A stretch of DNA of 63,555 bases, from the IMG/VR virus record IMGVR_UViG_3300004806_000026, positions 1 to 63,555 of that record, one strand, 5' to 3'. Shown piece after piece: positions 7,270 to 58,895 of this stretch. Under the pieces are notes generated by a model. It saw only the letters and a list, made by a program, of their open reading frames with translations, was not told the origin of the DNA and did not search any database. Position numbers and translations under genes: made by a program. The DNA is from a virus. Numbering within the stretch: the stretch's first letter is position 1; every line of letters starts with the position of its first letter.

Positions 7270-10101
7270 ATGAATACGGATTTCCTACAACAAGTCCTCG
7301 GGGACGGGGGATACTATTGTATTGTTGGTCTGAAAAAAGATTCGGACAAGCCTGTACAAAAGTTCTTCGAAAAGTTAGAAGATGCGGTAGCCGTAGCACA
7401 CAACCTTAAAGACAATGGCTATGATGCGTATTACGCATTGGCTACGTTTAATGATGGCAAGTCTAGAAAAACAGCAAATGTCAAACAACTTAAGTCGTTG
7501 TTCATTGACCTTGATTGCGGCCCTGGCAAACCATACGAAACACAAGCCGAAGCTATACAGTCTTTAAAACAGTTTTGTAAAGCTACAAGATTACCCAAGC
7601 CATCCCTTGTTAATTCGGGTGGTGGCATACACGCATACTGGGCGTTGACCGAAGCTATATCAAAAGATGAGTGGCTACCCTTGGCTGAGAAGCTAAAGAG
7701 CCTATGTGACGACAATGACCTCCATGCCGATCCAGTTGTAACCGCAGATTCGGTGCGGATTCTCCGCGTGCCGGATACGCTGAATTACAAGAATGATACG
7801 CCAAGACCTGTAACTTTACTGGGTTCGGCAGCGCCGCCCATTGAGTTAACCACAGTAAAAGATCTTATAGGAGAAGTAGTCCTATCTCGCAAGCCATATA
7901 TCCCACGAGGAGAAATGGATGAGGTAACTAAAGCTATCCTAGGTAATTACACCAATAGATTTAAGACCATACTGATCAAAACTGTTAAGGGCGAAGGTTG
8001 TCAACAGTTAGCGCACATCATTAAGAATCAAGCCACAATGTCTGAGCCGATGTGGAGAGCCGGACTGTCTGTAGCTAAGTTCTGTATTGATGCAGATAAA
8101 GCCATTGAGAAAATATCTAGTGGGCATCCTGATTATTCGCCTGAGATGGCGGATAGAAAAGTTAGAGGTATCAAGGGTGGGCCTTATACCTGTGCAAAGT
8201 TTGAAGAATTTAACCCCGGTGGTTGCGAAGGTTGTCATAACAGAGGGATCATCAAGTCCCCAATCGTGTTAGGTCGAGAAGTACAAGAAGCAAACGAAGA
8301 AGATAACATTGTCGAAGATATCCCTGCCGATGCGCCCCAAGGTCATACGCAGACTTACATAATTCCTAAGTACCCTGAACCGTACTTTAGAGGTAAGAAT
8401 GGCGGTATCTTTAAACGAGTGATAAAAGAAGATGATGAGATAGATGTATTGATTTACCATAATGATTTATACGTTACAAGGAGATTAGTTGATTCGGACG
8501 TTGGAGAAGCGGTAGTCGTTCGACTACATTTGCCCCGAGATGGGGTTAGAGAATTTACAGTGCCTCTGTCAGCCGTGACATCAAAAGAGGAGATTAGAAA
8601 ACATATGGCAATGCACGGAGTTGCCGTAATGAAGATGGACGAAATAATGTCATATATAACTACATGGGTTAATCATATGCAACACGATGCGGCGGCAGAT
8701 GTTGCAAGAAGACAGTTCGGATGGACGGACAAGAAGCATGAGGCGTTTGTTGTTGGAGACAAAGAGATCAGGGCAGATAGAGTAGACCATAACCCACCAT
8801 CAAGTGCTACGGCACAACTGTTTGGTGCGTTTACAACTCAGGGTACGTTAGACGCTTGGAAAGAAGCGATGGAGTTTTACAACCGACCCGGCATGGAACT
8901 GCATCAGTTTGTAATAGGACTTAGCTTTGGTTCTATCTTTACCGATTTTACTTCAATCAACGGAGCGTTACTGCACATCTTTAGTCCGGACTCAGGTATT
9001 GGTAAGACTACGGCTATGCTTGCAGGAGCTAGTATTTGGGGCAACCCAACCAAGTTAGTTCTCAAGGAAGCTGATACTGCGGCATCTAAGATGAACCGAG
9101 CCGAGCGTTACAAAAATATTTGTTTATGGATGGACGAGGTAACTAACTCACCCGCTAAAGACTTAAGTGATTTCGTCTATCAATATACATCAGGGTCACA
9201 ACGTAACCGTATGTCAGGTAGCGCAAACGAAGAGCGCACAAGAGGTGAGATGTGGCAACAATGCGGTATCAGTACCGGCAACACAAGCATCATGGAAAAG
9301 ATCAGCGTCCTCAAGGCTATGCCTAAAGGTGAAGCTATGCGTATCTTAGAAATCCGTGCGTATCCTATGCTTGGTTTAGTAAAAACAGATACGGACGAAC
9401 TTAGTGAAAAAATCTTAAGTAATTACGGTCACGCTTATCTGCCGTTCCTGCAATATGTAATGAACGATATTAAAGGCACGGAAGAAACATACAAGCAGAC
9501 ACAACTTAAGTTAGATAAGGCTTGTGGGTTTGGCCCGGCAGATCGGTTTCATTCTGTTATTGGCGCAGGGGGTATTAGTGGTTTACTCATGGCTAAGAAG
9601 GCAGGACTTATAAACTATAACGTATCGGCAGTGGTGCAGTGGTTACTAAATGCTGTATCTAGTATCAAGGAGCAGGTAAGCGCAATGGATGTCGATGCCG
9701 AGACCACACTTACAAACTTCTTAGCTGAAAACTACAACAACATTCTTCGTATTAAAAGCACGGATGATTCTAGGATTAACAACAACTCTGGCTTAGAGCA
9801 TTTAATTATTCCCGATGCAACGCCGAGAGTAGCCATGATCGCAAGGTATGAATACGACGTTAAGATGTTATTCATTTATCCTAAGCCACTTAAAGAATGG
9901 TGTACCAAACAACAGATAAATTATCAAGGGTTTGTTGACGCACTTAAGCGGGGCCGCACTAAGGCTAAGATTGGTAAGAAGCGTATGTCCAAAGGCACAC
10001 ATATGAATCTACCTTCGGCGGATGTATTGCATATTAACTGTGAGGAGTTTTTAGATGACGTACCCGAAACAGTGGACAAAGGGGTGGCAACTGAATCCTG
10101 A
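7270..10101 (+). CDS. AEP primase-helicase fusion, 943 aa
   Basis: The N-terminal domain is an archaeo-eukaryotic-type (RepB-like) primase: the metal-binding pair is in LFIDLD (Asp80, Asp82) and the nucleotide-binding histidine in SGGGIHAYW (residues 116-124). The C-terminal part is a DUF927-like helicase ATPase with Walker A SGIGKTT (576-580) and Walker B LWMDEV (Asp622, Glu623). A single protein would prime and unwind at the fork, working with the Pol A enzyme. It lies in the operon led by the HTH and SSB-like genes. The start follows AGGG after a short hairpin. Confidence 0.9.
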   Translation: MNTDFLQQVLGDGGYYCIVGLKKDSDKPVQKFFEKLEDAVAVAHNLKDNGYDAYYALATFNDGKSRKTANVKQLKSLFIDLDCGPGKPYETQAEAIQSLKQFCKATRLPKPSLVNSGGGIHAYWALTEAISKDEWLPLAEKLKSLCDDNDLHADPVVTADSVRILRVPDTLNYKNDTPRPVTLLGSAAPPIELTTVKDLIGEVVLSRKPYIPRGEMDEVTKAILGNYTNRFKTILIKTVKGEGCQQLAHIIKNQATMSEPMWRAGLSVAKFCIDADKAIEKISSGHPDYSPEMADRKVRGIKGGPYTCAKFEEFNPGGCEGCHNRGIIKSPIVLGREVQEANEEDNIVEDIPADAPQGHTQTYIIPKYPEPYFRGKNGGIFKRVIKEDDEIDVLIYHNDLYVTRRLVDSDVGEAVVVRLHLPRDGVREFTVPLSAVTSKEEIRKHMAMHGVAVMKMDEIMSYITTWVNHMQHDAAADVARRQFGWTDKKHEAFVVGDKEIRADRVDHNPPSSATAQLFGAFTTQGTLDAWKEAMEFYNRPGMELHQFVIGLSFGSIFTDFTSINGALLHIFSPDSGIGKTTAMLAGASIWGNPTKLVLKEADTAASKMNRAERYKNICLWMDEVTNSPAKDLSDFVYQYTSGSQRNRMSGSANEERTRGEMWQQCGISTGNTSIMEKISVLKAMPKGEAMRILEIRAYPMLGLVKTDTDELSEKILSNYGHAYLPFLQYVMNDIKGTEETYKQTQLKLDKACGFGPADRFHSVIGAGGISGLLMAKKAGLINYNVSAVVQWLLNAVSSIKEQVSAMDVDAETTLTNFLAENYNNILRIKSTDDSRINNNSGLEHLIIPDATPRVAMIARYEYDVKMLFIYPKPLKEWCTKQQINYQGFVDALKRGRTKAKIGKKRMSKGTHMNLPSADVLHINCEEFLDDVPETVDKGVATES
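8511..8528. repeat. Degenerate copy of the 18-bp palindrome inside the primase gene
   Basis: GGTAGTCGTTCGACTACA keeps both GTAGTCG/CGACTAC arms of the right-arm palindrome. It is read as VVVRLH in the primase. It is the only copy I found outside the 52-62 kb arm. Confidence 0.5.
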
Positions 10102-49686: not shown

Positions 49687-51236
49687 TAATAGTACCCCCT
49701 GTTACGCTTAGATTTAAACCATGTGACATCTTCAGGCTCATCGCTGGGGAGTCGAATAAACCCGCCCTGTCTGAACCGGGCTAACGCCATAGATGTGGTA
49801 TCAACCAAGTCATCATGTGACATAAAGGGAAATCCTGCAACTTCTTCAACAACCTCTTCAGCCCAACGTGTTTCAGGAACCCACACGAGTCCTGACTTAA
49901 TAATGTCCGATACCGCATTGAGCCTGACTAACTTGTCTCCGGTCCCACGGTGCGGCGTGAATTCTTGTACTGACATCCCAGTACGTCTTAGTTCTTGATA
50001 GAGCTGCGTTCCGGCGGATTTCTTCTCAACAATAAACGCATCAGGGGTCCATTCCCTGTACTCTTTATATGCTAATTCTTTTAACTCATGGAATTCTATC
50101 CGCTTTTTAATCGCGTTGAGTAAGATAATGTTGTATAAATTTGTTTCCTCGTTCATAAACACACCCCACGTTGTGATGGCTGTGTAGTCTGCACGGTTAT
50201 GAGTTTCTGCTGCAGCGTCAAGGGACATAATAATATATTCACAAGGCGGTGGACGCTCGGGCTTCCATATCTGCCACCACTCCCGCTTGACAACTGCGGC
50301 TTCCTCACCCGTTGGGTTTTGTTGGTACTGGGCGTTCCACTGAAAGAGCGGCATAGACGCTTTGGTCCTATGCAGTGCAGTGAGGTTATAAAACTCAGGC
50401 CAAAGTGCCTTTTCTTCCTTAGACCCCTGGTTTAATATAGCGGGAAACTCAACTACCTCGTATTGATCTGACTCTTCATTTTGAGTCATATCCTTAACTA
50501 CTCTACCCGTCAAATCATCCTGATGCCACCTAGTTTGAATGATAGCCACACAACCGCCAGGCATAAGACGAGTCCTAGCACCATATGTAAACCACTCATA
50601 GGCTTTTTCAAATACGTCAAAATTCCCATTAATGATGTCTTGCTCATTATGAGGATCATCCACAAGAAGTAAATCTGCGCCACGACCAGCCAAAGCAGAG
50701 CCAACACCGCAAGCGTAATACTCCCCACCCACATTTGTATTCCATCTACCGGCACTTTTATTGTCAGGCGCGAGGGAGACCGTTGGAAAAATTGTTTTAT
50801 AGTCTGGGTTATCAATTAAATTCCTCACTTTTCTACCAAAATCGACCGCTAAATCGGTCGTATGTGACACCATTAGCACCTTTTTGTCCGGGTTTCTACC
50901 CAAAAACCATGCTGGAAAATAGATAGAAACAAGCTGACTTTTACCGTGTCTAGGCGGAATATTGACGCAAATACGGTCTTTTTTACCCGTTGCAATCGCC
51001 ATTAAGTGGTCTGCAAGTATGCGGTGGTGCTTACCAACCTTGTAATCTGGCTGCATTTTCTTGCAAAACTCGATCAAATCATCGTAACAAGCCTTAGATT
51101 CACGTCGTTTTGTGATCTCATTGATGATTTCTTCGGCTTCAGCCTGCTCTTCTGGGGTAAATTGGTCTAAATTATCCAGTAAAAACTGTAATTCTTGGTC
51201 GTCTAACTGATCAAAAACGTTAATCTGTGCTTGCAT
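49686..51236 (-). CDS. terL: Terminase large subunit, 516 aa
   Basis: ATP-driven packaging motor and nuclease. Walker A is PPRHGKSQ (94-101) and Walker B LLLVDDP (around 189-195). TRWHQDD follows as the coupling motif. The RNase H-like nuclease begins at IIMSLDAAAETHNRADYTAI (Asp340, Asp350), with HDDLVDTTSMAL toward the end. Overlaps the small subunit gene by 17 bases. Confidence 0.95.
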   Translation of the reverse strand: MQAQINVFDQLDDQELQFLLDNLDQFTPEEQAEAEEIINEITKRRESKACYDDLIEFCKKMQPDYKVGKHHRILADHLMAIATGKKDRICVNIPPRHGKSQLVSIYFPAWFLGRNPDKKVLMVSHTTDLAVDFGRKVRNLIDNPDYKTIFPTVSLAPDNKSAGRWNTNVGGEYYACGVGSALAGRGADLLLVDDPHNEQDIINGNFDVFEKAYEWFTYGARTRLMPGGCVAIIQTRWHQDDLTGRVVKDMTQNEESDQYEVVEFPAILNQGSKEEKALWPEFYNLTALHRTKASMPLFQWNAQYQQNPTGEEAAVVKREWWQIWKPERPPPCEYIIMSLDAAAETHNRADYTAITTWGVFMNEETNLYNIILLNAIKKRIEFHELKELAYKEYREWTPDAFIVEKKSAGTQLYQELRRTGMSVQEFTPHRGTGDKLVRLNAVSDIIKSGLVWVPETRWAEEVVEEVAGFPFMSHDDLVDTTSMALARFRQGGFIRLPSDEPEDVTWFKSKRNRGYY

Positions 51237-51801
51237 CAGTCGTTTCCTGGGGCAAACCTAGCTCTTTATCAAGATCTATTGTCGTAATTTCTTGTGGTAT
51301 ACGCAGTCTATTGATCTTTTCTTTAAGTGATATCACTAATTCTTCTGTAGACCTATGATTTATAGTGATTTCTGTCCTATCTGTGAACAGTCCAACGTCT
51401 GAGATCTTACCAAGCAGTTCAAGCGCTCGAATCCGCACGCGGGGATCTGGGTTTTCTGTCTCAAGAATTAGTTTATTAGTTACAACCTGGCGAATCTGAG
51501 CTGCGTTATCAACTACTTTAATAGCAAACTCTTTTAATATGCTATCTACTGCGTAATATGTTGCAGGTCTGAGCTTAGATGCTTTGGCATTGGTTAATTT
51601 TTTGTTTGCTGCAACTGGATCTTCTGCCATCGAATACGCAATTGTTTCAGCAACGGCAAGATCATCCTGCGTCGGATCCGTGTCCAAACCAAGATGTTTA
51701 GCTGTCTCACAGGCAGCTTCTGCACGACTAATAAAATCTTCAATATCCAAATCGTCGTTCGGTAATGGGACTCCAACGTCGGGTTCAATATGTATTTGCA
51801 T
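51220..51801 (-). CDS. terS: Terminase small subunit, 193 aa
   Basis: Lies immediately before the large subunit. It has an N-terminal helix set (FISRAEAACETAKHLGLDTD), a central RVRIRALELLGKISDVGLFTDR and a coil-like C-terminus. DNA-recognition subunits are poorly conserved; assignment relies on position and the conserved central patch. First gene of the leftward block; a long leader precedes it. Confidence 0.8.
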   Translation of the reverse strand: MQIHIEPDVGVPLPNDDLDIEDFISRAEAACETAKHLGLDTDPTQDDLAVAETIAYSMAEDPVAANKKLTNAKASKLRPATYYAVDSILKEFAIKVVDNAAQIRQVVTNKLILETENPDPRVRIRALELLGKISDVGLFTDRTEITINHRSTEELVISLKEKINRLRIPQEITTIDLDKELGLPQETTDASTD

Positions 51802-52244: not shown

Positions 52245-52262
52245 TGTAGGCGATCGACTACA
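52245..52262. repeat. 18-bp palindrome, copy 1
   Basis: TGTAGGCGATCGACTACA, with one mismatch between arms. It lies about 40 bp upstream of the 52,303 promoter, a place suited to an operator. Confidence 0.8.
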
Positions 52263-52394: not shown

Positions 52395-52946
52395 ATGACA
52401 AACGTAACGACTGTGCTTTCTTCTAGTTCTTCTAAGGCTTTACTTGATGCGCTCAATGCAGATAATACGGCTAAAGCTAAATGGAAAAAAGCGAGTGATG
52501 CCTGTATCGCAGATGGTATTACTAGTGCGATGCTAGATAAGTCTAACAAGGCTTCTAATGTGGAAACAGTAATTGGGCAAGTTGAATCAATTGTTTTACA
52601 GTCATTTACTAAGACTGAAGTAGCTATATTCCAAAAGGATAAAGCTAAATGCTCAGAGGCAGAATTGGTTACTCGTAGATTTGTGCAAACCGAAAAAGCA
52701 TCAAGGTATTCTAAGATTGTCACCCATATTAAAAAGATGGAAGACAGCGAACTACTTGATGATAAGACCAAAGGCGCACAAACACCAAAAACAGGTAAGA
52801 AACCAAAGGAGGCAAAGGCTCAAGTCGCATGGTATCTTGACCATGCAATAAGAACCTTACAGGCGATGACTAACCCTGAAATTGGCGTGAGTACAGATAT
52901 TAAGACATTGCAAGTAATTGAGGCAAAGTATAAAACTACTGTGTAA
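52395..52946 (+). CDS. Unknown protein isolated in the control region, 183 aa
   Basis: Single-gene unit with its own promoter and two terminators. Ser-rich start (TTVLSSSSSKALLDALNADN), helical middle (KWKKASDACIADGITSAMLDKSN), a Lys-rich linker (KGAQTPKTGKKPKEAKAQ) and a C-terminal helical part (VAWYLDHAIRTLQAM). No family recognised. Own promoter, palindrome upstream and location at the origin-like region suggest an early or regulatory protein, possibly binding nearby repeats; unproven. Confidence 0.75.
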   Translation: MTNVTTVLSSSSSKALLDALNADNTAKAKWKKASDACIADGITSAMLDKSNKASNVETVIGQVESIVLQSFTKTEVAIFQKDKAKCSEAELVTRRFVQTEKASRYSKIVTHIKKMEDSELLDDKTKGAQTPKTGKKPKEAKAQVAWYLDHAIRTLQAMTNPEIGVSTDIKTLQVIEAKYKTTV

Positions 52947-52958
52947 TTAGCAACCCCG

Positions 52959-52989
52959 AACCCTAGGATTAAACCCTAGGGTTTTTTTT
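52959..52989 (+). terminator. Intrinsic terminator 1 of a tandem pair
   Basis: AACCCTAGG pairs with CCTAGGGTT (nine base pairs), followed by eight T residues, just after the 183 aa gene. The sequence after it (CGTCTTRATTATTTATTAT) repeats after terminator 2. Confidence 0.9.
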
Positions 52990-53011
52990 CGTCTTGATTA
53001 TTTATTATTTA

Positions 53012-53042
53012 AACCCTGGGGCTTTGCCCTGGGGTTTTTTTT
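53012..53042 (+). terminator. Intrinsic terminator 2 of a tandem pair
   Basis: AACCCTGGGG pairs with CCCTGGGGTT with two G-U pairs around CTTTG, then eight T residues. It looks like a diverged duplicate of terminator 1, insulating the region beyond. Confidence 0.9.
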
Positions 53043-53060: not shown

Positions 53061-53078
53061 TGTAGTCGTTAGACTACA
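53061..53078. repeat. 18-bp palindrome, copy 2
   Basis: TGTAGTCGTTAGACTACA, with seven-base perfect arms and a changed centre. It begins the first copy of the duplicated module. Confidence 0.8.
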
Positions 53079-53226
53079 TTGATACCAGTGTTTGTCGTTA
53101 GCGTAGAGCACAGGGTTAGGGTTTCGCAGTCGGCTCGGCTTAGTTATCAGCAACATATTACCGAACAATGTAGGCGATCGACTACAAATTGATACCAGTG
53201 TTTTTCGTTAGCGTGGAGCACAGGGT
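53079..53226. repeat. Direct repeat of a 38-nt sequence, two copies
   Basis: 53,079-53,116 and 53,189-53,226 differ at two of 38 positions. Each begins TTGATACCAG and ends AGCACAGGGT, and each follows an 18-bp palindrome (the second after two extra bases). The unit looks like a duplicated regulatory or origin module. Confidence 0.8.
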
Positions 53227-53604
53227 CGATTTGTTCTACCGAACAATATTAGGGTTAACGAGTATATTGTTCGTTTTCAATTTGTTCCGACACTTTAGTA
53301 TTACATTGTTCGGTTTCAATTTGTTCGGTTTTGATCTGTATTGTTCGGGCATATTGTTCGGTCGTAAGTCATTGATTTTAAAGGAATGTTCGATTTGTTC
53401 GTATTGTTCTTGCGTTTTGACACACCATGTCTATAAATTTCTGAAACCAGTTTTGGCAGAGCCTAAACGCAGATTACATTCTTTTTCGTTTTTAAAACCC
53501 ATATACTTTTTTTTAAAGAACAAATCGAACAATACGAACATATTCGCAAAATCAACAACTTACGAAAAGAACAATACCCCCCTAAAAACGAACAATAGAA
53601 CAAT
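53163..53604. repeat. Inverted array of ATTGTTC/GAACAAT heptamers
   Basis: About 16 copies of a seven-base motif. Between 53,266 and 53,409 all point one way (ATTGTTC or TTTGTTC, nine clear copies). Between 53,518 and 53,604 all point the other way (GAACAAT or GAACAAA, five). Three more mixed copies lie at 53,163-53,247. Two arms are exact inverse matches: 53,388-53,400 with 53,518-53,530, and 53,400-53,409 with 53,527-53,536. It resembles an iteron origin or a multi-site operator. No credible gene lies here. Confidence 0.75.
53169..53186. repeat. 18-bp palindrome, copy 3
   Basis: TGTAGGCGATCGACTACA, identical to copy 1, directly after a GAACAAT heptamer and two bases before the second 38-nt repeat. 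Confidence 0.8.
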
Positions 53605-53665
53605 ATACTATTTAATAATATAACTTAGTACAAATTAGAACTTACCACAAAACATCACTATTTAC

Positions 53666-53694
53666 TTGACTTTGATACTTGATTATGTTATAAT
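53666..53694 (+). promoter_or_regulatory. Sigma70-type promoter of the right arm
   Basis: TTGACT (53,666-53,671), 17 bp, TATAAT (53,689-53,694). The bases around and after the -10 (TGTTATAATATGTATTGT) match the 55,513 promoter closely. It should start the transcript for the genes from 53,796. Confidence 0.85.
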
Positions 53695-53718
53695 ATGTAT
53701 TGTAGGTGGGAATTGTTT

Positions 53719-53733
53719 AGAACATATTGTTCT
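53719..53733. promoter_or_regulatory. Heptamer dyad near the transcription start
   Basis: AGAACATATTGTTCT pairs two heptamer half-sites head to head about 17 bp after the expected start of transcription. It would suit repression by the protein that binds the array. Confidence 0.55.
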
Positions 53734-55593: not shown

Positions 55594-56481
55594 ATGGAAA
55601 CAACAAGTTCAATCTGTAGTCTGCCGACTACATCAGTGCCAAGCATCAGCAGTTCAGCAATGCTTGTGGAGTTAAACATCAGCGTGTGGACAGGTCGCAA
55701 GTTCGACAAGGGTGTATCCAAGGAGATCGACACAGCCAAACAAACTACCACAAGAGCGGGTAACTACTCTAAGAAACTATTCGCAGACGAGCCGAAGTTC
55801 GATGTGATTCAAAAGTTTGCGGGTAACGCTAGGACGTACCACTACCATGCGACCATGCCGTGGTCAGACTCAGGTCTAAGACTCATACCAACATCTTTAT
55901 ATTTTAACTATGTTAAAGAGATGTCAGGCATGGCGAACGAGTTCAACAACTTAGTCGATGACTTCTTAGGTGACTATCATGTGTTAGTTAACCGATCAAG
56001 GCAGAAACTGGGTAACCTATTCAGCGCAGACGACTATCCCGAGGTGGGCGTAGTGCGTGACAAATTCAGATTCAGATTCTGTGAGATTCCATTGCCCGAT
56101 GCAGGGGATTTCAGACTGGACATCAACAACGATGCACAACAAGTTATTAAGGAGAGATACGAGGAACACTACAAGAAGTGTTTAGAACAAGCGATGCGTG
56201 AACCATGGGAACGTATGCACGATGCGCTTAAGAACATGAGCACCAAGTTAGCAGGGAATGACAAGCAGATATTCCGTAATACATTGGTGACTAATGTAGT
56301 GGAGATGTGCGATCTACTGGACAAGTTCAACATCACGAACGACCCTGAGATGCGCCGAGCCAAGCAAAAAATTGAAGATGCAATGCTAGGAGTAACGCCC
56401 GATGCACTAAGAGAAGATGACGATCTACGTCACGATGTGAAGGGTAAGGTCGATGCCTTACTCAACGAGTTCAATTGGTAA
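55594..56481 (+). CDS. DUF3150-like partner of AAA+ and VWA genes, 295 aa
   Basis: First of a three-gene set. Residues 25-60 (LVELNISVWTGRKFDKGVSKEI) and the helical, acidic rest (LVDDFLGDYHVLVNRSRQKLG, CEIPLPDAGDFRLDIN) fit my memory of DUF3150-type proteins found beside MoxR ATPases in phages; not certain. The N-terminus contains the six-codon palindrome (CSLPTT) just after METTSSI. It probably acts with the ATPase downstream as client or adaptor. Confidence 0.65.
   Translation: METTSSICSLPTTSVPSISSSAMLVELNISVWTGRKFDKGVSKEIDTAKQTTTRAGNYSKKLFADEPKFDVIQKFAGNARTYHYHATMPWSDSGLRLIPTSLYFNYVKEMSGMANEFNNLVDDFLGDYHVLVNRSRQKLGNLFSADDYPEVGVVRDKFRFRFCEIPLPDAGDFRLDINNDAQQVIKERYEEHYKKCLEQAMREPWERMHDALKNMSTKLAGNDKQIFRNTLVTNVVEMCDLLDKFNITNDPEMRRAKQKIEDAMLGVTPDALREDDDLRHDVKGKVDALLNEFNW
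55615..55632. repeat. 18-bp palindrome, copy 6, inside a gene
   Basis: TGTAGTCTGCCGACTACA, seven-base arms, 21 bases after the start codon, read as Cys-Ser-Leu-Pro-Thr-Thr. Confidence 0.8.
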
Positions 56482-56483
56482 TC

Positions 56484-56501
56484 CGTAGTCGACCGACTAC
56501 A
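56484..56501. repeat. 18-bp palindrome, copy 7
   Basis: CGTAGTCGACCGACTACA in the spacer between the DUF3150-like and AAA+ genes, 36 bp before the ATG. Confidence 0.85.
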
Positions 56502-56537
56502 TCTTAATTTATTTTTTAATCAACAGGAGAAAATCAA

Positions 56538-57662
56538 ATGGCTAAAGCTATTCAAACCGCAGAGCGTTTATTTGCACAAACAATTCCCGAGGTTGTCGAT
56601 TCAATATCAGCAACAGGACATCTACTAACCACATTGGTGGTAGGTCACATGGGTACAGGTAAATCATCAATCCTTAAGATGTTGGCTGAGAGATTACCTA
56701 ACCACATCCCGTGTTACTTCGACTGTACAACTAAAGACCTTGGTGACTTGATGATGCCTAAGATACTGGACATGGGTGACGATGCACAGTATGTACGATT
56801 CGTACCTAACGAGGAGATGGGTATACACCATGACAAACCAATCATCTTAATGATTGACGAGTTCGGCAAAGCCAATCCAAGTGTTAAGAACGGCATGATG
56901 CGTATGATGTTAGAACGTACCATGGGTACAAAGAAGTTACACAAAGATTCAATCATCTTTGCAACGACTAACTTAGGCGCAGAGGGCGTGGGTGATTTGC
57001 TTATGCCACACCACAGGAATCGTATCACTACGATACGTCTTAAGAAACCAACGGCAACTGAGTGGATCGACAACTTTGCAATCAATGCAGGAATACATCC
57101 GTCTCTTATTCTGTGGGTCAAGGAACACGGCGAACAACTATTCCAATCATTCGAGGACGTAGACAATCCCGAGGACGAGACAGGTGGCAACCCATACATC
57201 TATCATCCCAAGGCGCAACGCCCCGCATTTGTTACTCCAAGATCATTGGAACTGGCATCTCATTGGTTGTGGGCTAAAGATCGTATCAGCGAGAATTCTC
57301 TCAAGTCTAATCTCATTGGTACTATCGGTGATCGTGGTGGTATGGACTTAGGCGCATACATTCGTTTAGTAGATGATCTACCAAAACAAGAGGAGATCAA
57401 GCAAGACCCCAAGAACGCAAAGATACCGCAATCAGCATCAGCAACTTGTATGGTTGTGTATCGTGCACTTGCAACAATGGATAGATCATGGGTTGATGCG
57501 TGGTTGGAATATCTACCAAGGCTCGACAAAGCGGCGCAAGGTTTGTTTGCAATGCAGGTTCGTAATCCTAACTATAAGAAACAATCAGTAATAATGACAA
57601 ACGCCAAGTTTACCAAGTGGGCTATGGATAACAACTATATGTTTACTGCGGACAAAGCGTAA
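56538..57662 (+). CDS. MoxR-type AAA+ ATPase, 374 aa
   Basis: Walker A is GHMGTGKS (36-43) and Walker B IILMIDE (Asp107, Glu108). Sensor 1 is FATTN (Asn145), and DEFGKANPSVKNGMM and HRNRITTIRLKKP complete a MoxR-like core. MoxR ATPases remodel or activate protein complexes together with VWA partners, and the next gene encodes exactly such a partner. The leader is CAACAGGAGAA after a palindrome. Confidence 0.9.
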   Translation: MAKAIQTAERLFAQTIPEVVDSISATGHLLTTLVVGHMGTGKSSILKMLAERLPNHIPCYFDCTTKDLGDLMMPKILDMGDDAQYVRFVPNEEMGIHHDKPIILMIDEFGKANPSVKNGMMRMMLERTMGTKKLHKDSIIFATTNLGAEGVGDLLMPHHRNRITTIRLKKPTATEWIDNFAINAGIHPSLILWVKEHGEQLFQSFEDVDNPEDETGGNPYIYHPKAQRPAFVTPRSLELASHWLWAKDRISENSLKSNLIGTIGDRGGMDLGAYIRLVDDLPKQEEIKQDPKNAKIPQSASATCMVVYRALATMDRSWVDAWLEYLPRLDKAAQGLFAMQVRNPNYKKQSVIMTNAKFTKWAMDNNYMFTADKA

Positions 57663-57677
57663 CAACAACGAGGCGGA

Positions 57678-57695
57678 TGTAGTCGGTCGACTACA
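57678..57695. repeat. 18-bp palindrome, copy 8
   Basis: TGTAGTCGGTCGACTACA, extended by GGA/TCC to a 24-bp perfect-arm dyad, 27 bp before the VWA-gene ATG. Confidence 0.85.
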
Positions 57696-57722
57696 TCCAA
57701 ACAATTTAACAGGAGAAATAAT

Positions 57723-58895
57723 ATGTTAGCAATAGGCAAACCACTAACCGCACAAGAGCGGTTGTTCAAAGCTACGACTGCAATCGTAGGTCAAGATGAG
57801 TTCATTGCACTAGCCGGTGTACTTATGATCGGTGAGAAGAAGATAGTTGATGGACTACCGACTGCGTGTACCAATGGTCGTGACGAAGCGTATGGTCGTG
57901 AGTTCGTGGAATCATTAACCGATCCCGAATTTAGATTCTTAATACTACATGAGTGCTATCACAAAATGTATCGTCACTTAACCACATGGAAACATCTTTA
58001 TGAGGAAGATGCCCAACGTGCCAATCGTGCGTGTGACTATGCGATCAACATCCGACTAGCCGATACCGATCTAGGTAAGAAGGGTTGGATCAAGATGCCC
58101 GAGAACGGACTCATTGACGAAGCGTATCGTGGTATGGACGTACACGAAATCTATAAGTTGTTACCGCCTGGCAATGGTGGCAAGAGTAAGGGTGATGGCG
58201 AGGGTGACAGTCCATTCGATGATCACGACTGGGAAGGTGCACAGGAGATGAGCGAGGAGGAAGCCGAGGAGTTGAAGAAACAAATTGACGAAGCAATCCG
58301 TCAAGGCTCAACACTTGCATCCAAGACAGGGGCGAGAAGTTATGGTGACTTACTTAAGACCGAGCAAGACTGGCGTGAACTACTGCGTGAGTTTGTGTCA
58401 ACAACTTGTGCAGGACATGACTATTCAACATGGCGCAAACCTAATCGTAGATATGTGGGTATGGACATCATCATGCCAAGCGCAATCAGCGAGACACTAG
58501 GTGAGATCGTGGTAGCTATTGACACATCAGGATCTATCGGTCAACGTGAACTAGAAAAGTTCTTAACAGAAATCGTGGGTATCTCTGAACAAGTAAAGCC
58601 GAGCAAGGTTCGCATAATCTATTGGGACACTAGCGTGTGTTCGACTGAGGTGTATCTACAAGACGAGCTATACAAGATACCCGCATCTACTAAGCCCGAG
58701 GGTGGTGGTGGCACAGACGTGGCGTGTGTACCGATATACATGAACGAGCAAGGCATCAAGCCCGAGTGTGTGGTTGTGTTAACCGATGGTTACTTAGGTG
58801 GGACATGGGGTGTGTGGAACGTGCCAGTATTGTGGTGCATCATTGACAACCCAAGGACAACTGCAAGTGTTGGAACAACGATACATCTGGACTAA
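57723..58895 (+). CDS. DUF2201-type protein with HExxH and VWA-like MIDAS, 390 aa
   Basis: N-terminal zinc-metallopeptidase-like domain with ILHECYHKMYRH (His76, Glu77, His80), an acidic linker (SEEEAEELKKQIDE), and a C-terminal VWA-like domain with MIDAS residues VVAIDTSGSIG (Asp267, Ser269, Ser271), GGGGTDVA (Thr331) and VVLTDGYL (Asp355). Both active centres look intact. The family pairs with MoxR-type ATPases; here it directly follows one. It may be a phage-made protein-remodelling or proteolytic machine. Confidence 0.9.
   Translation: MLAIGKPLTAQERLFKATTAIVGQDEFIALAGVLMIGEKKIVDGLPTACTNGRDEAYGREFVESLTDPEFRFLILHECYHKMYRHLTTWKHLYEEDAQRANRACDYAINIRLADTDLGKKGWIKMPENGLIDEAYRGMDVHEIYKLLPPGNGGKSKGDGEGDSPFDDHDWEGAQEMSEEEAEELKKQIDEAIRQGSTLASKTGARSYGDLLKTEQDWRELLREFVSTTCAGHDYSTWRKPNRRYVGMDIIMPSAISETLGEIVVAIDTSGSIGQRELEKFLTEIVGISEQVKPSKVRIIYWDTSVCSTEVYLQDELYKIPASTKPEGGGGTDVACVPIYMNEQGIKPECVVVLTDGYLGGTWGVWNVPVLWCIIDNPRTTASVGTTIHLD

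Follow-up and report, generated by a model that had tools for sequence, protein, structure and literature searches.

The 63,555-bp viral contig analysed here (the window), in which the early/replication arm is read rightward and the structural arm leftward, contains a long non-coding gap in which short repeats of the ATTGTTC type occur in both orientations. This locus raises the question of whether the repeats constitute a replication origin and, if so, which protein would recognize them; a sequence-only reading had proposed an iteron origin, or else a multi-site centromere or operator. The iteron-origin reading is strongly supported by the conservation of the array, its architecture, its AT-rich centre and the presence of a protein resembling the SaPI Rep, and we consider it probable that the array is a phage replication origin of the PICI/SaPI type with a primase-helicase as initiator.

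Architecture and genomic setting of the repeat array

Between positions 53,163 and 53,732 of the window there are 12 exact ATTGTTC/GAACAAT heptamers, 17 TTGTTC hexamers and 20 TGTTC sites; the array of "about 17 heptamers" described earlier is thus real, although its number is the hexamer count. When the 854-bp gap was shuffled 2,000 times with its dinucleotides preserved, ATTGTTC occurred on average 0.19 times (maximum 3) and TGTTC 2.0 times (maximum 8), and the most frequent 7-mer of any sequence, present in 12 copies in the gap, reached at most 7 copies in 1,000 shuffles. This confirms that the array lies far above chance. The opposite motif directions reported for the two arms also held, since 17 of the 20 TGTTC sites fit a left-forward/right-reverse split (P = 0.007). 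The features considered here are:

7270-10101, plus strand: gene of the proposed initiator, a 943-aa protein with an archaeo-eukaryotic primase fused to a DUF927 (SaPIbov1 Rep/Cch-like) helicase
52958-53037, plus strand: two intrinsic terminators of the 183-aa gene, closing the left side of the array
53078-53116 and 53188-53226, plus strand: two copies of a 39-bp element (ATTGATACCAGTGTTTGTCGTTAGCGTAGAGCACAGGGT) that are 95% alike, situated to the left of the array and with counterparts in relatives
53163-53247, minus strand: outlying reverse sites left of the main array (53163 and 53241)
53232-53409, plus strand: left iteron cluster (TGTTC at 53232, 53268, 53283, 53307, 53322, 53342, 53355, 53387, 53396 and 53405)
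53410-53517, no strand: centre between the inner triplets, the proposed melting region (108 bp, 69% AT)
53518-53604, minus strand: right iteron cluster (reverse sites at 53518, 53527, 53536, 53569, 53590 and 53598)
53584-53643, no strand: second candidate unwinding element, which overlaps the right cluster and ranks second in the window among the least stable 60-mers
53666-53694, plus strand: near-consensus sigma-70 promoter of the right-arm operon (TTGACT-17-TATAAT, 11 of 12 positions, with TG before the second hexamer)
53720-53732, no strand: head-to-head site pair GAACATATTGTTC in the leader of the right-arm operon

The final three forward sites of the left cluster and the first three sites of the right cluster are each spaced 9 bp apart, and a single reverse site (53241) falls inside the left cluster. 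Of the two exact inverse matches between the arms, that of 13 bp (53,265-53,277 and 53,585-53,597) was found as described, whereas the one given as 10 bp extends over 14 bp (53,387-53,400 and 53,518-53,531). The head-to-head pair is indeed situated at the start of the right-arm transcript, just downstream of the promoter; it is kept in a close relative (L009) and may possibly serve autoregulation of the right-arm operon.

The gap is not itself strictly flanked by divergent gene blocks: the 183-aa gene to its left (52,395-52,946) also points rightward, its terminators insulating the array from that side, and the divergence lies at about 51.8-52.4 kb. GC skew, suggested as a check for a replication start, does switch sign near the array, but because it follows gene direction, so that replication and transcription are not separable here, we do not count it as evidence. 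The array region matched no isolated phage in BLASTN and no Rfam family, and it contains no tRNA.

Conservation of the layout and of the AT-rich centre

Relatives of the window were retrieved via the MoxR-type ATPase, TerL and a 295-aa DUF3150-like protein, and near-complete ones were read over their whole length. Their gene order is largely kept (TerL, 193-aa protein, 183-aa protein, array gap, small genes, 295-aa protein, MoxR ATPase, VWA protein), and nearly every relative with a readable gap carries inward-facing sites in it. The layout recurs at this position in dozens of related phages. The geometry of the sites is better kept than their sequence, which drifts among relatives (ATTGTTCG, AATGTTC, AAAGTTCC, AATGTTAC, TTGAACC, TTGTAC), individual phages carrying ATTGTTC, AATGTTC, AAAGTTC, TTGAAC or TTGTAC repeats. 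About 25 further contigs have different inward-pointing iterons in the same gap and layout, often with an inner spacing of 9 bp. An inward layout that persists while the iterons change is what one would expect of sites recognized by a sequence-specific protein that is itself diverging. In the clade of the window the inner sites are typically 9 bp apart around a centre of about 95-113 bp, while the AATGTTC clade has a spacing of 10-11 bp and a longer centre (about 95-250 bp among the relatives overall). The array core hardly differs between the window and L009, and both iteron changes convert ATTGTTC into AATGTTC, which is the repeat found in other relatives.

When whole genomes were scanned blindly for inward-facing 6-mer arrays, the array locus was the sole match in 11 of 16 related genomes, and shuffled windows gave no arrays. 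The strict form of the scan missed the remaining five (G003, G004, G008, G014 and G017) even though sites are present, which weighs against the origin reading. Two long contigs (157 and 85 kb) with the 295-aa gene and without the primase-helicase show none of these arrays in the matching upstream stretch, a point in favour of the origin reading. No comparable array turned up when parts of HTVC023P, HTVC027P, DSL-LC04 and Pag-Yong1 were scanned; the matches in Pag-Yong1 were GC-rich only.

The centre of the array, almost invariant in L009, contains in its last 40 bp (53478-53517) its least stable 40-mer, which ranks in the top 0.6% of the genome; its single-strand hairpin is modest (z = -1.94). 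Among the related genomes the centre is 61-73% AT, compared to 40-63% genome-wide, and by nearest-neighbour stability the array gap holds the least stable 60-mer of the genome in 10 of 19 genomes and one of the three least stable in 15 of 19. This low stability supports but does not prove the presence of an unwinding element, because intergenic DNA is generally AT-rich. The stability minimum falls inside the centre in the AATGTTC clade and at the right cluster in the clade of the window, where the centre is still AT-rich; that the least stable DNA of this clade is partly displaced to the right of the centre is a point against the origin reading.

A primase-helicase as candidate initiator

The 943-aa protein contains DUF927 by Pfam, and its profile matches SaPIbov1 Rep (8tch; E = 2.9e-18) and SCCmec Cch (5dgk; E = 1.2e-15). 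The same two structures are the best folds for its predicted structure (pLDDT 81), followed by PrimPol domains, the predicted N terminus having an AEP fold (S-2L PrimPol 6zp9; E = 8.8e-8), and the elements predicted in its C-terminal region would fit a winged helix. It is a core protein of the phage family, present in 17 of 20 gene sets, the remaining three being partial contigs. The DUF927-containing Cch is related to SaPIbov1 Rep, and in SaPI Rep the C-terminal domain recognizes the iterons (PMC7581432). Since its family is known to bind iterons in this way, the primase-helicase appears to be a better candidate binder than the 183-aa and HTH proteins proposed earlier; the 183-aa family is too variable (13-31% identity) for an obvious binder and has no recognizable DNA-binding domain. 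Some C-terminal residues of the primase-helicase partly co-vary with iteron class (KQQ..GF versus K[HRK]Q..GL), a suggestive pattern that comes from only nine, non-independent phages, a small set, and is confounded by phylogeny.

Distant homologues occur in other phages. In the cultured Pseudomonas phage Rollin (OR577172.1), whose primase-helicase is 28.7% identical, an inward TATGCAA heptamer array (forward sites at 260, 282 and 304, reverse sites at 528, 537 and 546) with 9-bp spacing is accompanied by the least stable DNA of the genome and is the only such array found in the record; it provides an independent case in favour of the origin reading. Rhizobium phage RHph_TM27A (MN988461.1) encodes a homologue of 23% identity; it has no convincing array, which counts against the origin reading. 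Both homologues, annotated as "hypothetical protein" (Rollin) and "putative integrase" (RHph_TM27A), look like PrimPol-DUF927 replication proteins.

PICI origins always comprise two iteron sets flanking an AT-rich region (PMC6092414). The locus shares with the origins of SaPIbov1 and the E. coli PICIs its element-specific iterons and a cognate helicase of Rep type, from the DUF927/SaPIbov1 family, accompanied by a primase: profile and fold both place such a helicase in the window, and the primase, sometimes fused to rep in PICIs and SaPIs, is here the N-terminal AEP fold of the same protein. It differs in that the array heads the early operon and is separated from the initiator gene by 14-17 kb (G003, G008 and G012), whereas PICI origins follow immediately 3' of rep, a difference that speaks against the origin reading. 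Moreover, these phages are not helper-dependent satellites but have their own terminase, portal and capsid genes, the window encoding TerL, a portal and a major-head-like protein. As the array has no adjacent initiator gene and the element is not a satellite, we do not file the array as a PICI origin proper. The SCCmec elements have a homologous DUF927 helicase in Cch/Cch2, and the C-terminal domain of Cch2 binds the iterons of a putative origin (PMC7581432); however, that origin consists of three direct 5-nt iterons beside the gene, without an inverted array of this size.

A single initiator-helicase-primase protein of phage type together with short iterons in both orientations is also a likeness to phage P4, where the alpha protein combines all three activities and ori carries such iterons. 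P4 alpha is not known to share this helicase family, and the P4 ori/crr do not face inward around one centre.

The array, its kept geometry, its drifting repeats and its AT-rich centre are directly observed, as are the family and predicted fold of the primase-helicase; from them we infer which protein binds, and that melting and the start of replication take place at the array. In the proposed mechanism, the AT-rich centre lies between the inward clusters of 7-8-bp iterons, both of which the primase-helicase would bind via its C-terminal domain. Two oppositely oriented helicase rings would be assembled on them and would melt the AT-rich DNA, the protein's own N-terminal primase priming synthesis, and the outcome would be bidirectional replication from the head of the early operon. 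Two opposed rings have been proposed for SV40 T-antigen (PMC9894130) and, by analogy, the inward symmetry would suit such an arrangement in a phage. It also seems likely that iteron specificity is particular to each phage lineage, so that satellites and phages share one replicon type. If correct, this would provide an origin, a mechanism and a candidate initiator for a widespread environmental phage family, and would place the satellite (PICI/SaPI) origin type in phages with full structural genes, which bears on the source of the replicons of satellites. The diverged iterons and their matching proteins, as a natural series, would form a ready set for decoding DNA recognition by this helicase family, with Rollin as a cultured test case.

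Alternative functions and neighbouring elements

The position of the array about 60 bp upstream of the near-consensus promoter, and the head-to-head pair in the leader, would also suit an operator or enhancer for control of the right-arm operon by a cooperatively binding phage protein. We regard this as unlikely: the inward symmetry around an AT-rich centre and the roughly 10-20 sites exceed the needs of an operator, and most genomes have a separate dispersed palindrome that resembles an operator set. It is quite unlikely, too, that the array is a pac site like that of phage P1, with a TerS-like protein bound to both clusters and headful packaging initiated in the centre. In P1, hexamer clusters likewise lie on either side of the cut; the P1 pac is inside the terminase gene, whereas the array here, with its two short-repeat clusters around a centre of about 100 bp, is linked to TerS by neighbourhood alone. 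That neighbour, a conserved 193-aa protein (51220-51801) found in 20 of 20 relatives, sits immediately upstream of terL, which it overlaps, some 1.5 kb away from the array, and is by its TerS-like position probably the small terminase. Its predicted fold nevertheless matches no TerS, and its sequence stays well conserved (43-60% identity) even as the iterons drift. A number of contigs stop within or close to the array region, as packaging from it might suggest, but mostly in neighbouring tandem or palindromic repeats, which break assemblies anyway, and these ends are probably assembly breaks and not fixed termini. In Rollin, furthermore, the array accompanies the primase-helicase, and an AT-rich melting centre is not known to be needed at pac sites.

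Short heptads in both orientations do occur in some centromeres, and the array could on that account be the partition centromere of a plasmid-like prophage. This is extremely improbable: no ParA/ParB family was recognized among the 40 window proteins searched in PHROGs, which leaves the centromere branch of the sequence-only reading without support, and the window carries a tailed-phage gene set. The origin reading, with the primase-helicase as initiator, remains preferred.

The 193-aa protein contains a strongly conserved RALELLGKISDVGLF stretch; its model had no meaningful match in the PDB. In the window and in relatives a 28-39-bp element (GATACCAGT...GTCGCGCYGAGC in the relatives) forms direct repeats beside the palindrome left of the array, with up to several tandem copies in L083 (1-260), and the contigs L034, L062, L072, L077, L083 and L087 end in or just left of the array region. 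A dispersed palindrome, (A)TGTAGTCGNNCGACTACA(T), occurs in the window at 8512, 53062, 53748, 54360, 55616, 56485, 57679, 58897, 60667 and 62005, with variants at 52246 and 53170, mostly in short gaps before right-arm genes. In 17 of 20 related genomes one dispersed palindrome of the genome's own sequence (e.g., GTTAGTGNNNCACTAAC, GATAAGTAATTACTTATC) is present in 3-11 copies in the same region. These palindromes resemble a lineage-specific operator or "stoperator" set; no repressor for them was identified. Further to the right (55594-58895), the DUF3150-like protein, the MoxR-type ATPase and a DUF2201 metallopeptidase/VWA protein are encoded consecutively; all three are core genes of the phage family, and the ATPase is distantly matched in N4-like and other phages.
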